A DNA stretch of 7,629 nt from Chloroflexota bacterium (GTDB lineage: Bacteria; Chloroflexota; Limnocylindria; Limnocylindrales; CSP1-4). The translations under genes were made by a program, and so were the position numbers. Shown in pieces: positions 959-7,629 of the stretch. The stretch's first letter is position 1, and every line of letters starts with the position of its first letter. Where the stretch lies: positions 1 through 7,629 of the forward strand of contig JAJYJR010000270.1 in the NCBI GenBank assembly GCA_021789355.1, read 5' to 3'. Under the pieces are notes generated by a model. That model did not search any database and had not been told where the DNA came from. It saw only the letters and a list, made by a program, of their open reading frames with translations.

Positions 959-2044
959 TCACTCGCGCGTTGGGGGCTGCTCCAACGCCGCGATGAACTC
1001 CTCGGCGGTTATTGCGCGCAGGCCAGCCTGCTCGGCTGCCGACCGACCGTCGGCCGAGAACCCAGACTTCGCGACCAGGAGCCAGGGCCAGGCGTCGGCG
1101 GAGTCCTCGCGGGCCCGGAGGACGTCCTCGACCTCCGCAGATGACGCTCGCCGGGGGCCGTCCAGGGGGACAACAACGCTGCCCACGTCGTTGGGGTCGA
1201 CGCTCCGAAGGGCCGCGACCCCCCCGAAGTCGGCCTCTTCGACCAACCAGCCGGCCGCCTCCATGTACTGCGCGAGCGCGTCGGCGAGGGATGGCACAGG
1301 TGGTGGCGGAGTCTCTCCTGGTTGATCCTCGACGACGAGCCCGAGGCCGGGCGACAACGTACCGGCGGACTCCACCGCCGCGACGAGGTCGCCGAAGGTC
1401 GCGTACTGGCCCTTGTCGAACACGAGCTGGTCGACCCGCATGTAGCGCCAGTCCTGCCCGGCCTGCTCGCGGATGGCGTGGCACCACGCCCGAATGCCCC
1501 GGTCCTTGTGGGCCACGTCGGCGAACATGCGGCCCTTGGTCTCGACGATCCAGCTCACCTCCCCTGCCGGCGTCGTCTGGATGGCCACGAAGTCCGGGTA
1601 GTAGCGTCGGAGCGCCCCGCTCGGCCCCAGGTACGTGACGTTGAAGCGGGTGAACTGCTCGGCGAGGGCGGACCAGCGTGGGATGTCGGGGCGGGAGTCG
1701 AGCCACTCGGCGAAGCGTCGCTCGTAGTCGTTGAAGACCGTGACGAAGTTGAAGATGGTGTGGTTCGCCTGGAAGTGGGGGCGGCGCCAGAGGAAGCGCT
1801 CCAGCTGCGACAGCCGGAACTCCTGCTCGTCGAACTCGAGCGGGCGCTCTTCCAGCGTCGCCGCGCCGACCCGCTGCGCGAGATGCGCGGCCAGACGCTC
1901 GCGGTAGGCGAAGTTGGAGAGCAGGCCCGCAACGTTGGCGTCGTCGAGCTCGACGGTGTGTCCGAACAGGTGGCGGCGGACGTAGGCCTCGACGACCGGG
2001 TACAGGACCGCGAACTGCCCGGAGAGCCTGGCTCGGTCCATCAC
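959..2044 (-). CDS. C-terminal nuclease portion of a type III restriction-like helicase/nuclease (5'-truncated)
   Basis: The 361-residue product matches only the C-terminal part of Res-type (type III restriction subunit R-like) DEAD/DEAH helicase-nucleases, which usually approach 1000 residues. Residues about 95-210 hold the nuclease core: a lead-in with TIFN and NDYERRFAEWLD, then YYPDF (148-152), WIVETKG (165-171) and the KDRGIRAWC helix (180-188). P150-D151, E168 and K170 form an intact-looking PD-(D/E)xK site, so DNA cleavage is possible. Residues about 240-361 resemble a second, Mrr-like fold (SGFSADGRSAAEQAG), but its catalytic Gln-x-Lys is not visible. The frame starts with GTG-ATG and has no ribosome binding site; upstream it stays open only to a stop at 2117-2119, and no helicase motif is present. 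It is probably a remnant whose 5' part was lost beside the sigma-factor gene. An independently expressed stand-alone nuclease is less likely. Confidence 0.75.
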   Translation of the reverse strand: MMDRARLSGQFAVLYPVVEAYVRRHLFGHTVELDDANVAGLLSNFAYRERLAAHLAQRVGAATLEERPLEFDEQEFRLSQLERFLWRRPHFQANHTIFNFVTVFNDYERRFAEWLDSRPDIPRWSALAEQFTRFNVTYLGPSGALRRYYPDFVAIQTTPAGEVSWIVETKGRMFADVAHKDRGIRAWCHAIREQAGQDWRYMRVDQLVFDKGQYATFGDLVAAVESAGTLSPGLGLVVEDQPGETPPPPVPSLADALAQYMEAAGWLVEEADFGGVAALRSVDPNDVGSVVVPLDGPRRASSAEVEDVLRAREDSADAWPWLLVAKSGFSADGRSAAEQAGLRAITAEEFIAALEQPPTRE

Positions 2045-2132
2045 GGCGTCAGCACGCGGGGGCGGTGCGCGCGGGCACCTGAATCTGGAGCGAAGAGGCT
2101 GTGCAGCTCTTGACTCTTAGACTTCGTGAGCG

Positions 2133-2138
2133 AGGGAG
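2133..2138 (+). promoter_or_regulatory. Ribosome binding site favouring the GTG start at 2149
   Basis: AGGGAG lies 10 bases before the GTG at 2149-2151. An earlier in-frame GTG at 2101 has no such sequence and would add 16 residues unlike the family. This favours 2149 as the start of the sigma-factor gene. Confidence 0.5.
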
Positions 2139-2148
2139 AATCGTCGCT

Positions 2149-3186
2149 GTGGGCGAGAATCCGGTGAATCTGGTCGAGGACGCGCCGTCGCCGGGATGGG
2201 ACGATGCCGAGCTGACCGCTGCTCGCGAGGGCGATCGAGCGGCGTTTGCCCGGATGATCGCGCCAATCTACGGACAGTTGCACGCCCACTGCTATCGCAT
2301 GCTCGGTTCGGTCCATGACGCTGATGATGCCGTCCAGGACGCGCTCATGCGCGCTTGGCGCGGGATGGGCGCCTTCGAGGGCCGCAGCTCGGTCCGGACG
2401 TGGCTGTTCACCGTGGCGACCCGCGTCTGCCTCGATCTGTCTGCTGCCCGCGCCCGGCGCGCGCTGCCCATCGACCTCGGTCCGGCCAGCGATCGGGTCG
2501 ACCTCGAGGCCCAGCCTTCGACCGAGATCCCCTGGATCACGCCGTACCCGGACACCGATCCGCTCGATTCCACGCTGCGCCGGGAGTCGCTCGAGCTCGC
2601 CTTCATCGCCGCCCTGCAGCACCTTCCCGGGAACCAGCGCGCGGCACTGCTACTCTTCGACGTCCTCGGGTTCAACACCGCCGAGATCGCGGAGATCATG
2701 GGCACCACGAGAACATCGGTCAGCTCCGCCCTCTCCCGGGCTCGACGCACCCGCGAGGCGCGAGCCCCACATGCCGACGAACTCCGACCGGCCGAGTCGG
2801 TGGTGGATGAGGGCCTCCGACGACTCGCGAGCCGGTTCGCGACGGCGCTCGAAACAGGCGACCTCGATACCTTCGTGTCGCTGCTCACCGAAGACGTCAC
2901 CTGGACGATGCCCCCGCTCACCACCTGGTACCGGGGCCTCGATGCCGTCGCCGACTTCGCGCACGAAGTGCCGATGACGCGATGCCCGAGCTGGCGAGAC
3001 ACCCTCTTCACCGCCAACGGCGGACAGCCGGCGATTGCGTTCTACCTCGGCGCCGACCCCGCCGCCGACCACCTGGCCTGGGCGATCGCCGTCCTGGAAA
3101 CGCGCGGCGATCACATCGCATCGATCACCTCGTTCATCGAACCCGAGCTGTTCCCGCGCTTCCGCCTCCCCGCACAACATCCCTGA
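2149..3186 (+). CDS. ECF RNA polymerase sigma factor with C-terminal SnoaL-like domain (SigX5/SigG type)
   Basis: This 345-residue protein directs RNA polymerase to a specific promoter set. Region 2 spans about residues 20-107: a GDRAAFARM helix, then the core-binding segment HDADDAVQDALMRAWR (56-71) and the -10 recognition segment with SVRTWLFTVATRVCLDL (81-97). Region 4 is about 147-200: LPGNQRAALLLFDVLGF, then the helix-turn-helix TAEIAEIMGTTRTSVSSAL. Residues about 220-335 form a SnoaL-like fold, with the signature TMPPLTTWYRG (253-263) followed by an AVADF helix. In this class the SnoaL domain is thought to modulate the sigma factor in place of a separate anti-sigma factor, and no anti-sigma gene adjoins it here. 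The gene is divergent from the truncated nuclease. The start is set by the AGGGAG site. The length suits a complete member. Target promoters cannot be read from the sequence. Confidence 0.9.
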   Translation: MGENPVNLVEDAPSPGWDDAELTAAREGDRAAFARMIAPIYGQLHAHCYRMLGSVHDADDAVQDALMRAWRGMGAFEGRSSVRTWLFTVATRVCLDLSAARARRALPIDLGPASDRVDLEAQPSTEIPWITPYPDTDPLDSTLRRESLELAFIAALQHLPGNQRAALLLFDVLGFNTAEIAEIMGTTRTSVSSALSRARRTREARAPHADELRPAESVVDEGLRRLASRFATALETGDLDTFVSLLTEDVTWTMPPLTTWYRGLDAVADFAHEVPMTRCPSWRDTLFTANGGQPAIAFYLGADPAADHLAWAIAVLETRGDHIASITSFIEPELFPRFRLPAQHP

Positions 3187-3498: not shown

Positions 3499-3541
3499 CG
3501 GGACGCCGCGGCCCACCCAGGTGGCGGGCGCGGGTCGAGCG

Positions 3542-3549
3542 GGAGGTGG
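3542..3549 (+). promoter_or_regulatory. Strong Shine-Dalgarno sequence fixing the start at 3555
   Basis: GGAGGTGG lies directly before the ATG at 3555-3557, with 8 bases between GGAGG and the start codon. An upstream in-frame ATG at 3444 lacks such a site and would add low-complexity residues, so 3555 is the likely start. Confidence 0.75.
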
Positions 3550-3554
3550 ATCCC

Positions 3555-4975
3555 ATGACGGCGACGCGAGCGCGAGGCGGCGGGGCACCCCGTCCCCGGC
3601 CGGTCCCGGTCAGGATGGCCGCACTCCTCGCCCGGAGCCGGTACGGGGGGCCCGTCGTGCCCTGGGACGCGATCGTCGGCCACGCGCCGGCGAAACGCGA
3701 GCTCGCGGTGGTGGTCGAGGCGGTGCGGCGTACCTCGGTGGCGCAGCGACTCGGGATCGGGGTGGTCAAGGGGGTCCTGATTTCGGGGCCGGCCGGGTCG
3801 GGCAAGACCCTGCTCGCCACGGCCCTGGCCGGCGCGGTCGAGCGCCCCGTCTACGTGGTCCCCGCGTCGGAGGCCGACGCCGCCACCGTCCGCGCGGTGT
3901 ACGCGGCGCTCGCCGAGGTGCCCTGCGTGGTCGTCTGGGATGAGGCCGATGTGTTCCTGCGCGCCCGTTGGGGGCGCGACGCGCCCGAGCAGGGACGCAC
4001 CGTGGCCGCGTTCTGCACCGCGCTCGACGGCGTCGAGCCCCTGCGCGGGCCGATCACCGTGGCGCTCACCGCGGAGTCCGAGTACGGGCTCGACCCGGCC
4101 GCCATCCGGGCCGGGCGGCTCACCACCAAGGTGACCCTCACGCTCCCCTCGCGCGACGAGCGTCGCGAGCTGTGGGCCCGCTGCACCGCGCGGGTGCCCG
4201 TGGCGGGGCCGCTCGACCTCGAGCGCGCGGCCGACCGGAGCGTGGGCATGAGCGGCGCCGACATCGCGGCCGCGGTGCTGGTCAGCCTTGGGCTCGGCAT
4301 GGCCGAGGGGCGCGACGCGGTGACCCCGGCGCTGCTCGATGAGGCCATCCTGCGCCACCACCACGTGGAGGAGCGTCCCATCACCCGCACCACGGCCCAG
4401 CTCCGCCGCGACGCGGTGCACGAGTGCGGCCACGTCCTGTACGCCGCGCTCACCTGGGGCGTCGAGAGCCTCGCCTCGGTCACCCTCACCCAGACGCGCC
4501 ACGGGGACGGACGCACGGTGCTCCTCGACGCCTGGGCCGACGAGGGGCAGCTCGACCGGCGGCGCATCCGCGAGAGCGCCGGGATGGGCCTCGCGGGCAT
4601 GGTGGCCGAGGAGCTCGTGTACGGCGAGGAGGGGGTCTCGGCCGGCTGCGTGGGCGATCTCACCCGGGCCACCCGGGTCCTGCGCCACCTCGCCGTCGAC
4701 CTGGGGGGCACGCCCGCCATCGGCCCGGTGGACCTCGACGTGCTCGAACACGGGAGCGCCTCGGACCGCGGTGCCGAGGCGATGCGTGCCGGCCTGTGGG
4801 AGACGGTCCGGGCCGAGGCGGCGGCGCAGCTGGCGGCCACGCGCGCCCTCCTGGCACCTGGCGGTCCGCCCTCGAGGGCCTCGCCGAGGGGTTGCTCGCC
4901 GCCGACGACCGGACCCTGTCGGGGCCCGCGCTCGCCGACGCCCTGCGCGTCTGCGGGGTGGCGGTCCCCCGCTGA
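3555..4975 (+). CDS. Soluble FtsH-like AAA ATPase/M41 zinc metalloprotease with a C-terminal frameshift
   Basis: FtsH-type enzymes use ATP to unfold proteins and a zinc site to cut them. Numbered from ATG 3555: Walker A GPAGSGKT at 78-85, Walker B VVVWDEAD at 125-132, LDPAAIRAGR at 179-188 with both FtsH arginine-finger positions, SGADI at 233-237, zinc motif HECGH at 289-293 and the third zinc ligand D368 in VGDLTRAT. Oddities: there is no transmembrane N-terminus; the sensor-1 Asn position appears replaced (TAES for ATNRP); and the stretch between Walker A and B is about 8 residues shorter than in E. coli FtsH, removing the FVGVG pore loop. After ALLA (residue 434) the matching C-terminal sequence (WRSALEGLAEGLL to VAVPR, stop 4973-4975) continues in the -1 frame; one extra base near 4854 would restore a protein of about 473 residues. 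As written, the first frame runs to 5042. It is likely co-transcribed with the next gene. The family is clear; the function is unknown. Confidence 0.85.
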
Positions 4976-5025
4976 GGGCCCGCCGGCGCGGGGCGAGGCA
5001 CCCCCGCCATCCCGGCCGTGGCGAG

Positions 5026-6591
5026 GTGCTCGGCAGCCATGACCGGGGCGAGGTGACGGTCGCGCACGGGTTGGCGAACGTCGACGCCGGTGTCGTGGTC
5101 GTCGACGCGCCGGCGACATCGACGGGCACCGGGACCTTCCTGCGCCAGGTGCTGCGTGCGCTGGGAGTCCCTCCCCCGCCGACGCCCAGGCCGGGCGTGG
5201 CGTTCGACCACGCGCTCGCGCTCGCCTGGCTGCGGGCGCTCGCGATCCGCGACCTCGTCGTGGTCCACGCCGACTGGCTTGGGCGCGGCCTCGCCTTCGA
5301 GGCGCTCCGCGCGCTCACCGCCGCCGGCCCCGACGTGTATCTGCTGAGCCAGCGCGATCCGGGCGCACGCCCCTCGCCGCTGCTCGAGGGCTGGTGCTCG
5401 GAGACGTGGCGCTGGGGGCGCTTCGCGGCCTGGGCCGCCGCACGCGCGAGCGCGCAGACCCCGGAGGCGCGCGCGCAATGCGAGGGGCTTCCCGTGCTCG
5501 GGCTGACCGGCGCGCCCCGGCGGGTGCCACCGCTCGCCGGGGCGCGCGGTCCGTCAGCCGACGCGTACGAGGCCGTGCGGCGTCGCGCGCGGCCGGACCG
5601 CCCGAGCTGGCACGCCGCGCACGTCGCGCGGCAGGTCCTCGCCGGATCCGGCGCGGCGGCCGGGCCCGCGCTGCTCGAGGGCGTGGCGGCCGGGCTCGAG
5701 GAGCAGGGCTACTCGCTCCTCGATGCGCCCGGCGCTGCGGTGGTGCCGACCTGGTGCGACCTGCGCCGGCTCGGGCATCCGCAGGGTCCCGCCCTCGTCG
5801 GTATCCACGCGGCCGGCGCCGGACCGCGTGCCCTGGCGCAGCTCCGGATCGCGGACGTTGCCGCCGACGGCTCCGGGGTCCGGCTCGGTGCTCGTGCGCT
5901 CCCGGTTCCGCGTGGCGCGCGACCGTTCGTGCACGCCCAACGTCTCCTGCGCCTCGCGGTGGGGCGCGACGCGGGGGACGTCTTCTTCGCCGAGGCGTCG
6001 GACGGGCTGACCGTCGATCAGGTCCGCGAGCAGCTGTCGGCCACCCTCGCCGCGGTCGGCGCGCACCTCCAGCCGGGCGACATCGGCGAACGGATCGCCC
6101 CGAGCCAGGCGTGGCTCTGGGCGCGCGGGCTCTCCGTGCAGCGCACGGCCCGCGCGGCGGCCCTCGCGGACGCACGGGCCGAGGCCGAGGCCGCCGCCCG
6201 CGGCACGTCGATTCGCGACCCGCGCTGCCGGCACGGCCTGCGTCCCACGCTCGTCGTCGGGCGCGACACCCTGTCGCACTCGCAGCTGCTGTGCCGCGCC
6301 CACGACCCCGAGGAGACCCGACCGCTCTGGCGCGGGTATGCCGTGCGCCAGCTCGAGGAGCGCGGCCGCGGGCGCACCTGGCGGGTGAGCCAGGACGGCG
6401 TGGATGCCGGCTGGCTCTGGTCGGTCGAGACGCCGCTCGGGAGGGCCTGGCTGGAGAAGGGCGGCGGCCACATGCCCGGTCTCGGCGAGGTCGTGGCGGC
6501 CAGCGACGCGCTGCAGCACGAGCGGACCCGCCGGGCGGCGCCCGGGCCAGCGGCACCCCGGCGGCAGACGGACGGATCCGCGACGCGATGA
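5026..6591 (+). CDS. Unrecognised protein: degenerate AAA-like domain plus degenerate tyrosine-recombinase-like domain
   Basis: I do not recognise this 521-residue protein as a named family. Residues about 22-110 resemble an AAA/TniB-type NTPase: VVVVDAPATSTGTGTFLRQ (23-41) sits where a Walker A loop would be but has no lysine, and LVVVHADWLG (77-86) looks like a Walker B strand without the Asp-Glu pair. Residues about 255-375 align by eye with a tyrosine-recombinase catalytic domain (AGAGPRALAQLRIADV at 263-278, then VRL, LPVP, DVFF, LT), but the first catalytic Arg is Gly265 and no HxxR or catalytic Tyr is seen. An Ala-rich helix (about 374-392) precedes CRH (401-403) and CRAH (423-426), a possible metal site. 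The start is uncertain: GTG 5026, or GTG 5053 (512 residues). It begins 50-77 bases after the protease gene on the same strand. Function is unknown; a DNA-binding or adaptor role is inference. Confidence 0.6.
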   Translation: MLGSHDRGEVTVAHGLANVDAGVVVVDAPATSTGTGTFLRQVLRALGVPPPPTPRPGVAFDHALALAWLRALAIRDLVVVHADWLGRGLAFEALRALTAAGPDVYLLSQRDPGARPSPLLEGWCSETWRWGRFAAWAAARASAQTPEARAQCEGLPVLGLTGAPRRVPPLAGARGPSADAYEAVRRRARPDRPSWHAAHVARQVLAGSGAAAGPALLEGVAAGLEEQGYSLLDAPGAAVVPTWCDLRRLGHPQGPALVGIHAAGAGPRALAQLRIADVAADGSGVRLGARALPVPRGARPFVHAQRLLRLAVGRDAGDVFFAEASDGLTVDQVREQLSATLAAVGAHLQPGDIGERIAPSQAWLWARGLSVQRTARAAALADARAEAEAAARGTSIRDPRCRHGLRPTLVVGRDTLSHSQLLCRAHDPEETRPLWRGYAVRQLEERGRGRTWRVSQDGVDAGWLWSVETPLGRAWLEKGGGHMPGLGEVVAASDALQHERTRRAAPGPAAPRRQTDGSATR

Positions 6592-6594
6592 CCG

Positions 6595-6624
6595 CGTCGG
6601 CTGGCCCACGTGGCGCGGCCGACG
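6595..6624 (+). terminator. Putative terminator hairpin after the 5026-6591 gene
   Basis: CGTCGGC (6595-6601) and GCCGACG (6618-6624) are perfect inverted repeats starting 4 bases after the stop codon. A G-T and a G-C pair can extend the stem inward to 9 bp, and the loop itself contains CCACGTGG. There is no T-run, so termination is plausible rather than certain. Confidence 0.45.
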
Positions 6625-6921
6625 ATCCCGCTCCGGGGTTGAAGCGGCGGTGTGCGCAGCGTGGTCCCGTCGCGGCTGGCCGGAACGGCCGAGCCGGTCC
6701 GTCGCCGCTCGAGCCCGGGACCCCGCGCGCCGGGGCGTGAACGCGCCGTCCCGCCGACGCGACGTCGTGCCACGCACGCTGACAGAGGCGGCGTCGACGA
6801 TGCGCGCCGGGCCAGCGGGGCGAACACGCCAGGGGCCGGCCCGCGCGAGCCCGGGCTCGGCTGCTGGCCCCGGCTGCATGGCCACCGCGGACTCCGCCAG
6901 GTGCGGTTGCATCGTCAACCA

Positions 6922-7013: not shown

Positions 7014-7499
7014 CTACGACGCGGTCGTCTCGAGGGTGATTCGGGTGCCGGTGGTGGGCGGCGTCGCCGCCGCAACCTTGACCCCGCCGGGAAACGACCA
7101 GGTGATCCTGGCGCTGCCAGATTCCACGACGACACGTGCCGGGGTCACCTCGCCCGCCGCCTCAAGTAGCTGGCTCAGGCCCATGCCACCCTCGCCGTGC
7201 GAGGTCGCCAGAGGGCGGACAGCCTGCTGGACGGCTTCCGCGTCAGAGGCGCCGCCCAATCGCGCCCGGATGCCGGGTCCCTGGTCCTCCACGGTGACGC
7301 GGATGATCTTCGTGTCGATCTCGAGCGTCACCTTGACGCCCTTTTGCCCGTAGCGGACCGCGTTGTCGCCGGCCTCACCGACGAAGGTCCCGACGGCCTC
7401 GCTCACCGCGGCGGAGCGCTGCTGGCGGACCGTCTCCGCCAGTGACTCGGCCAGTCGATCGACCTCGTCGGGCGTCGTCGGAGTGGACGAGGTGATCAT
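7014..7499 (-). CDS. RsbW-like ATP-binding protein (GHKL/HATPase_c fold)
   Basis: This 161-residue protein is a single HATPase_c domain of the type found in anti-sigma/serine kinases such as RsbW and SpoIIAB and in histidine-kinase ATPase modules. The N box is EAGDNAVRYG (42-51) with N46, the G1 box EDQGPGI (71-77) and the G2 box GEGGMGLSQL (102-111), all intact, so ATP binding is expected. There is no dimerisation/phosphoacceptor or membrane segment, which favours an RsbW-type partner-switching kinase over a sensor kinase. The start is set by an ATGA overlap with the stop of the upstream zinc-ribbon gene, meaning translational coupling; an earlier in-frame GTG at 7553 would fall inside that gene. 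No RsbV-type anti-anti-sigma or B-type sigma gene is visible, so the partner is unknown. The SnoaL-fused sigma factor in this window is not an obvious target. Confidence 0.85.
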   Translation of the reverse strand: MITSSTPTTPDEVDRLAESLAETVRQQRSAAVSEAVGTFVGEAGDNAVRYGQKGVKVTLEIDTKIIRVTVEDQGPGIRARLGGASDAEAVQQAVRPLATSHGEGGMGLSQLLEAAGEVTPARVVVESGSARITWSFPGGVKVAAATPPTTGTRITLETTAS

Positions 7500-7629
7500 G
7501 CGGGCACCGGGGCCGCCGCGGGGACGAACGCCCCCTCGTTGCATGCCGGGCACCGCCAGATCATGCCGCCCTCGCGGAGCTTGGCAACGCAGAGGGTGGC
7601 ACCGTGGTTCACACAGCAGACGGTGGGCA
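7496..7629 (-). CDS. C-terminal end of a Cys-rich zinc-ribbon protein (partial, runs off the right edge)
   Basis: Only the last 43 residues are in the window. They include TVCCVNHG, then LC, then a hydrophobic MIWRCPACNEGAF. The CPAC pair and the upstream Cys/His cluster look like the two halves of a zinc ribbon, and a Pro/Ala tail VPAAAPVPA ends the protein. The frame has the G/C-biased third positions of the real genes here. Its TGA (7496-7498) overlaps the ATG of the ATPase gene (7497-7499), as in a coupled operon. The N-terminal part, and therefore the function, lies outside the window. Confidence 0.7.
   Translation of the reverse strand, partial: PTVCCVNHGATLCVAKLREGGMIWRCPACNEGAFVPAAAPVPA

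Follow-up and report, generated by a model that had tools for sequence, protein, structure and literature searches.

A predicted soluble FtsH-like protease branch without pore loop 1, and a near-orphan neighbouring gene, in a Chloroflexota genome

AAA unfoldases such as FtsH grip their substrates with pore loop 1. For FtsH, PMC9020784 describes FVG as a substrate-entry and substrate-binding pore motif, with the pore-loop phenylalanine binding substrate and moving it into the pore, and PMC10850787 likewise presents FVG as the substrate-entry pore motif. ImmA/ImmR is a repressor-protease pair in which ImmA belongs to another metallopeptidase family than M41. The window analysed here is a whole stretch of 7629 bases (GC 73%) from contig JAJYJR010000270.1 of a Chloroflexota bacterium, and its main subjects are two adjacent genes, gene 1, encoding a predicted FtsH-like protease, and gene 2, encoding a near-orphan protein of 521 amino acids (aa). 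An initial annotation had read them as one unit that joins a soluble FtsH-like protease to a dual pseudo-enzyme partner. For the protease this turned out to be an understatement: pore loop 1 is gone as well as the membrane segment. This deletion, with ATPase and zinc residues kept, is the surprising part of the locus, and the protease branch that carries it is a real, unusual variant of a known family.

Over its first-frame part (3555..4862, + strand, end approximate), gene 1 matched Pfam AAA (5.4e-17) and Peptidase_M41 (8.1e-13), both above the Pfam cut-offs, and its best NCBIfam family was TIGR01241 (FtsH), a partial match of 151.9 bits that is below the curated cut-off of 600. FtsH likewise led the PDB matches when the branch profile was searched, while a PDB search with the single gene 1 sequence placed VCP-like AAA proteins marginally above FtsH. 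Searching proteins with gene 1 returned 95 entries, comprising the window's own protein (P0002) and 48 relatives (P0003-P0050) with 43-60% identity and lengths of 415-524 aa, most of which are annotated without a name, as cell division protease FtsH or as ATP-dependent Zn protease; P0021 comes from Candidatus Limnocylindrales. Gene 1 and these relatives are the 49 proteins counted below as the branch, and motif conservation was counted on 39 aligned rows. Walker A (GPAGSGKT, residues 78-85, 3786..3809, +) reads GK[ST] in 39/39 rows, the Walker B acidic pair (DE, residues 129-130, 3939..3944, +) is DE in 38 rows and EE in one, and the arginines R185 and R188 of the second region of homology (SRH; 4107..4118, +) are RR in all 39. 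The zinc site HECGH (residues 289-293, 4419..4433, +) has its H, E and H invariant in 39/39 rows, and so has the third zinc ligand D368 (4656..4658, +). At sensor-1, the ATN of FtsH is replaced by LTAE in gene 1 and by similar residues in the other branch members aligned.

An alignment to six ordinary FtsH proteins showed that the seven columns reading FVEMFVG, FVQMFVG or FVESLVG in those six, together with one further column downstream, are missing from gene 1 and from seven branch members; in gene 1, the site of the missing pore-loop-1 segment lies between E106 and A107 (3870..3875, +). A pattern search measured 45 residues from the Walker A lysine to the Walker B acid in 47/49 branch proteins, the two exceptions (P0018 and P0040) being early EE mis-hits of the pattern, and all 39 aligned rows have equal length in this region. 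The FVG motif was absent from 49/49. Among the 46 other proteins of the same search, 33 combined M41 with a Walker spacing of 53 and a motif of FVG type; a further two with M41 deviated (P0051 with a spacing of 47 and P0088 with 59, both without FVG), and in the remaining 11 no M41 or no Walker pair was detected. Control M41 open reading frames (ORFs) were taken from a contig scan with generic AAA patterns (loci L001-L095, among the matches listed), where 53 of 54 non-family instances showed a spacing of 53-58, and five instances with a spacing of 45 were two branch genes counted in overlapping loci. The one non-family exception is a 930-aa M41 ORF of Alteromonas arenosi (L068, ~6497-9287, +) with a spacing of 47 and no FVG, possibly an independent loss of the pore loop.

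Hydropathy in a 19-residue window reached at most 1.66 within the first 60 aa of the 49 branch proteins, so that none attained 1.9 there, and two of the 49 did so anywhere in their full length; 26/27 ordinary FtsH reached 1.9 within the first 200 aa. Judged by sequence, the branch is thus without an N-terminal membrane anchor, and gene 1 is predicted to encode a soluble AAA + M41 FtsH-like protease, as the initial annotation had it. An AlphaFold model of gene 1 built from 39 aligned sequences had a mean predicted local distance difference test (pLDDT) score of 81.6, and Foldseek ranked FtsH structures first in the PDB for this model. No description of a soluble or pore-loop-less FtsH branch, or of an FtsH of Limnocylindr- taxa, was found in a literature search of titles and abstract openings, in which subscription journals and preprints were not covered.

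Genome searches with a branch cut-off of E<=1e-55 or 1e-50 found branch members in 2/400 Chloroflexota genomes, the same two amounting to 2/177 in their class; these counts mark the protease branch as accessory. None was found in 346 Actinomycetota genomes, an empty result that shows nothing by itself, since that set contains no known positive and scoring was restricted to the first handful of candidates from each genome. The phylum of the searched sets was taken from their centre loci (L053, Chloroflexales; L049, Thermoleophilaceae). Relatives of gene 1 in plasmids and phages were distant matches only, all below 60% identity, the contig scan with generic AAA patterns and a viral scan had no close branch member among the matches listed (best identity 38%), and the pattern RAGRLTTKV was not found in viral sequences.

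Two branch neighbourhoods were readable. In genome G349 (locus L095, protease P0019), the start of the protease gene overlaps an XRE regulator gene (HTH_31) by 4 nucleotides (nt; GTGA), genes for TniQ, TniB/AAA_22 and an integrase-core transposase (rve 2.4e-4, below the Pfam cut-off; PADLOC TnsB 0.0026) lie ~2.4 kb to one side, and JetA3 and JetC3 of a Wadjet system lie on the other. The repeats of L095 held no clear terminal pair of a transposon, and for this reason I do not claim that the protease is transposon cargo. The Tn7-like TniQ/TniB/transposase genes of this locus (3904-9561) are preceded by two small genes, one of them TnsA-like by eye. In genome G248 (locus L094), whose protein is outside the list of 48 relatives, the protease gene starts a few bases behind genes for an ABC ATPase and a permease, and the next gene after it is RsgA-like. 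The initially suggested link with mobile elements or defence was therefore seen at one of the two readable loci, in G349 and not in G248. The idea of a conserved two-gene module found no support in this comparison, as a gene 2 homologue was beside 0/2 of these protease relatives: at E<=0.1 with default filters there was none, and with filters off the best E among the 182 ORFs of the two loci was 0.096. A search for the TniB family in 81 genomes of the class gave matches in 42 that were set aside, being mostly long ORFs resembling Clp proteins (by length; an E. coli control also matched), and neither the protease nor gene 2 was seen in two further loci from that search.

The two + strand genes and the ribosome binding site (RBS) described initially are present in the window. 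The RBS of gene 1, GGGAGGTGG (3541..3549, +), was read directly in the sequence 5 nt ahead of ATG 3555, and gene 2 (5026..6591, +) starts at GTG 5026 or alternatively at GTG 5053. The proposed gap of 50-77 bp between the genes is correct if gene 1 ends at 4975; as assembled, however, the frame from ATG 3555 extends to 5042 and overlaps GTG 5026. The C-terminal helix of the protease can be read in a different frame only (4850..4975, +, stop at 4973-4975), and since the relatives' C-terminus, with its TLSG motif in frame in those proteins, reads in this 4975 frame, the assembled gene 1 carries a frameshift near 4849-4870, which may be of either sequencing or biological origin. A GC-rich hairpin 3' of gene 2 (6596..6623, +) is indeed present, but is weak evidence for a terminator: it has no T run, and the fold of 6585-6640 gave z = -1.77, with 10/200 shuffles folding equally well. 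Gene 2 has a third-position GC of ~0.9 along its length and strong periodicity, and its codon usage correlates with that of gene 1 at r = 0.93 (the five alternative frames there give 0.41-0.79); by third-position GC and codon usage, it is truly coding. Gene 2 is a lineage-specific neighbour of gene 1, runs in the same direction and is probably co-transcribed with it.

The second half of the initial reading, a partner with relics of an NTPase and a DNA recombinase, fared poorly. The whole gene 2 protein had no family at E<=1 in Pfam, NCBIfam, PHROGs or PADLOC, and pieces of it searched against Pfam, NCBIfam and PHROGs gave only AAA_22, on one of the four pieces given to Pfam. PDB sequences gave no match to the whole protein and chance-level matches (E 1.4-2) to two pieces, two word-based protein searches (~8000 candidates scored in each) found no other protein, and plasmids, phages and one viral-contig scan held no confident homologue. 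None was found in the 177 Chloroflexota genomes of the class either, an empty result that again shows nothing by itself, with no known positive in the set and the first handful of candidates from each genome scored. AlphaFold on gene 2 alone was unusable (pLDDT 36) and was discarded. The AAA_22-like stretch (5074..5319, +; Pfam E=0.029, profile positions 30-108) aligns with the domain region beyond the P-loop; because the alignment starts at profile position 30, the Walker A named in the initial annotation does not coincide with the P-loop. At the place of Walker B the sequence is LVVVHAD, and gene 2 has neither Walker A nor Walker B as required of TniB/AAA_22. Against AAA_22 profiles of the class, shuffles equalled or exceeded the real score in 5/2000 cases for a broad profile and in 51/2000 and 97/2000 for two narrower ones. 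Support for an NTPase relic is weak, and no catalytic motif was detected in gene 2, a near-orphan.

On its own, gene 2 scored 0.5 bits against a profile of 30 class recombinases, at a different place, and 63/1000 shuffles (742 scored) matched this. Searching 296 Actinomycetota genomes gave four matches (L188-L191), of which L188-L190 were dropped as spurious, being glucose-6-phosphate-isomerase-like by eye (no family scan). The fourth, L191, is a 285-aa ORF (1549-2406, -) that matches residues 234-373 of gene 2 (5725..6144, +), a stretch with a suggestive tyrosine-recombinase-like profile. This match has few gaps, and 0/10000 shuffles (9668 scored) reached its score; it was, however, the best pick over 296 genomes, and spurious matches of similar score occurred in the same search. 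Pfam showed neither an AAA nor an integrase domain in L191, its one match (0.045) being at chance level, and phmmer did not report it when run with default filters. Further relatives of L191 were found neither in plasmids, phages and two viral-contig scans nor in a genus search, which contained only its own genome. L191 is thus an uncertain candidate relative of gene 2. It carries a P-loop-like VSGEPGLGKF upstream of the gene 2-like stretch and is followed by a gene that by eye resembles an XRE regulator. Aligned to the recombinases, a two-row profile of gene 2 and L191 matched them in register over the G-x-R..L...D stretch (P = 0.008, hhalign probability 4.9%), and 0/300 column shuffles reached its score against the class recombinase alignment, compared to 194/300 for an AAA control. 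The recombinase relic is consequently suggestive at most, and only after an uncertain relative has been added.

The genes around the pair were considered as well. The match of an ORF at 959-2044 (-) to the BPTD_3080 restriction model (1.2e-13; 50 bits, cut-off 800) is limited to positions 764-958 out of 970; the ORF likely has a PD-(D/E)XK core, judged by eye, and looks like a 5'-truncated defence or restriction endonuclease gene. It adjoins the gene for an extracytoplasmic function (ECF) sigma factor of TIGR02960 type with a SnoaL-like domain (2101-3186, +), whose best matches were 48% identical (288 bits) in Actinomycetota (198 genomes) and 46% identical (235 bits) in the Chloroflexota class (177 genomes). 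By these scores the sigma factor is nearer to Actinomycetota, while members of the protease branch turned up in Chloroflexota alone. An HATPase_c_2 protein is encoded at 7014-7628 (-) and could be a regulator of sigma activity.

I tentatively favour, at somewhat less than even chances, the explanation that gene 1 is a member of a distinct, rare, accessory and soluble M41 AAA branch that lost pore loop 1, in which the ATPase ring gates the peptidase and the substrates are regulators in genomic islands. The conservation of Walker A, Walker B and the SRH arginines suggests selection for ATP binding and hydrolysis. The branch protein would be hexameric, with its ATPase ring gating or positioning the peptidase without forceful unfolding; well-folded proteins would not be threaded, and ATP binding would gate access or shape the hexamer. 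Substrates may then be loosely folded or presented by a partner, and the most plausible one would be a regulator encoded beside the protease in islands with mobile or defence genes, such as the XRE repressor in G349, a proposal that is drawn from the XRE coupling there and likened to the logic of ImmR/ImmA. Gene 2 could be an adaptor or substrate in this lineage, its tie to the protease consisting of adjacency and matched codon usage. Several points weigh against this explanation. Foldseek TM-scores to FtsH were ~0.3-0.55 over the whole chain among the matches listed, with root-mean-square deviations mostly of 12-18 A, which on the model is read as a different domain orientation. The FVG motif itself varies, since 17/53 ordinary-length M41 ORFs have a full-length loop without the literal FVG-type motif (YAG, FYG and others). 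With the sensor-1 Asn replaced, ATP hydrolysis could be altered, and the window copy with its frameshift could be decaying. The neighbourhood evidence covers two loci, of which L094 is an ABC transporter/RsgA setting and no mobile or defence island, and no XRE gene was seen directly ahead of the protease in the window.

Three other explanations were weighed, each of which I consider unlikely. If the AAA ring were inactive or served purely as a structural scaffold, with the protein an ATP-independent zinc peptidase, the absence of pore loop 1 and the replaced FtsH sensor-1 Asn across the aligned branch would fit; the intact GK[ST] and both SRH arginines in 39/39 rows, and a Walker B of DE in 38/39 (EE in one), speak against it. 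Similarly doubtful is a decaying island, in which both genes are remnants joined by chance in a mosaic stretch and gene 2 encodes a degenerating accessory protein of a transposon. The frameshift in gene 1, the truncated neighbour at 959-2044 and the unrecognisable catalytic motifs of gene 2 fit such an island, yet the frame of gene 2 runs uninterrupted over 521 codons with a strong third-position GC bias, and gene 1 retains intact AAA and M41 motifs.

A dedicated pair, in which gene 2 acts as an adaptor or delivers substrates in the regulated proteolysis of a protein bound to DNA, has in its favour that the genes are on the same strand, 50-77 bp apart or overlapping by frame, with closely matched codon usage, and that the possible relative L191 is beside an XRE-like gene (by eye) as the G349 protease is coupled to an XRE gene. 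Against this, gene 2 is missing near both of the protease relatives with readable surroundings, and two protein searches, 177 Chloroflexota genomes, plasmids, phages and a viral-contig scan gave no confident gene 2 homologue, so that a dedicated pair seems unlikely too. A bolder reading, in which an ATP-binding, non-threading M41 lineage controls regulators in mobile and defence islands and gene 2, a DNA-binding protein derived from a recombinase but without its catalysis, recruits the protease to its target, would be a long shot. The natural deletion of pore loop 1 with ATPase and zinc sites kept makes the contribution of an AAA ring to proteolysis apart from threading directly testable, and the soluble form should ease purification. 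The XRE, Tn7-like and Wadjet genes around the G349 protease suggest a regulatory role for such proteolysis in genomic islands.

Compared to known systems, gene 2 shows weak similarity to TniB/ExeA-type AAA_22 ATPases after the P-loop, but Walker A is absent from the aligned place, and with 2/3 profiles 2.5-5% of shuffles score as high as the real sequence or higher. Its profile with L191 beats 300/300 column shuffles against tyrosine recombinases (PF00589), whereas the hhalign probability is low, gene 2 alone is indistinguishable from shuffles and has no significant single-sequence match, and no clear R-HxxR-Y catalytic set is recognisable. The AAA part of gene 1 resembles IetA of the IetAS defence system (PADLOC, 4.9e-17), but this similarity is confined to residues 46-270, gene 1 itself has M41, and gene 2 has no PADLOC match; with no neighbouring IetS protease found, membership in IetAS was rejected. 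As in ImmA/ImmR, the metalloprotease gene of L095 is coupled in translation to an XRE regulator and lies near mobile-element genes, while no XRE gene was seen beside the window protease and gene 1 is no member of the ImmA family. The closest relative is FtsH, with which the gene 1 branch shares the AAA-then-M41 order, Walker A and B, the SRH arginines, HExxH and the third D ligand, and from which it differs in that the N-terminal membrane anchor, the pore-loop-1 segment and the sensor-1 Asn are all lost or replaced.

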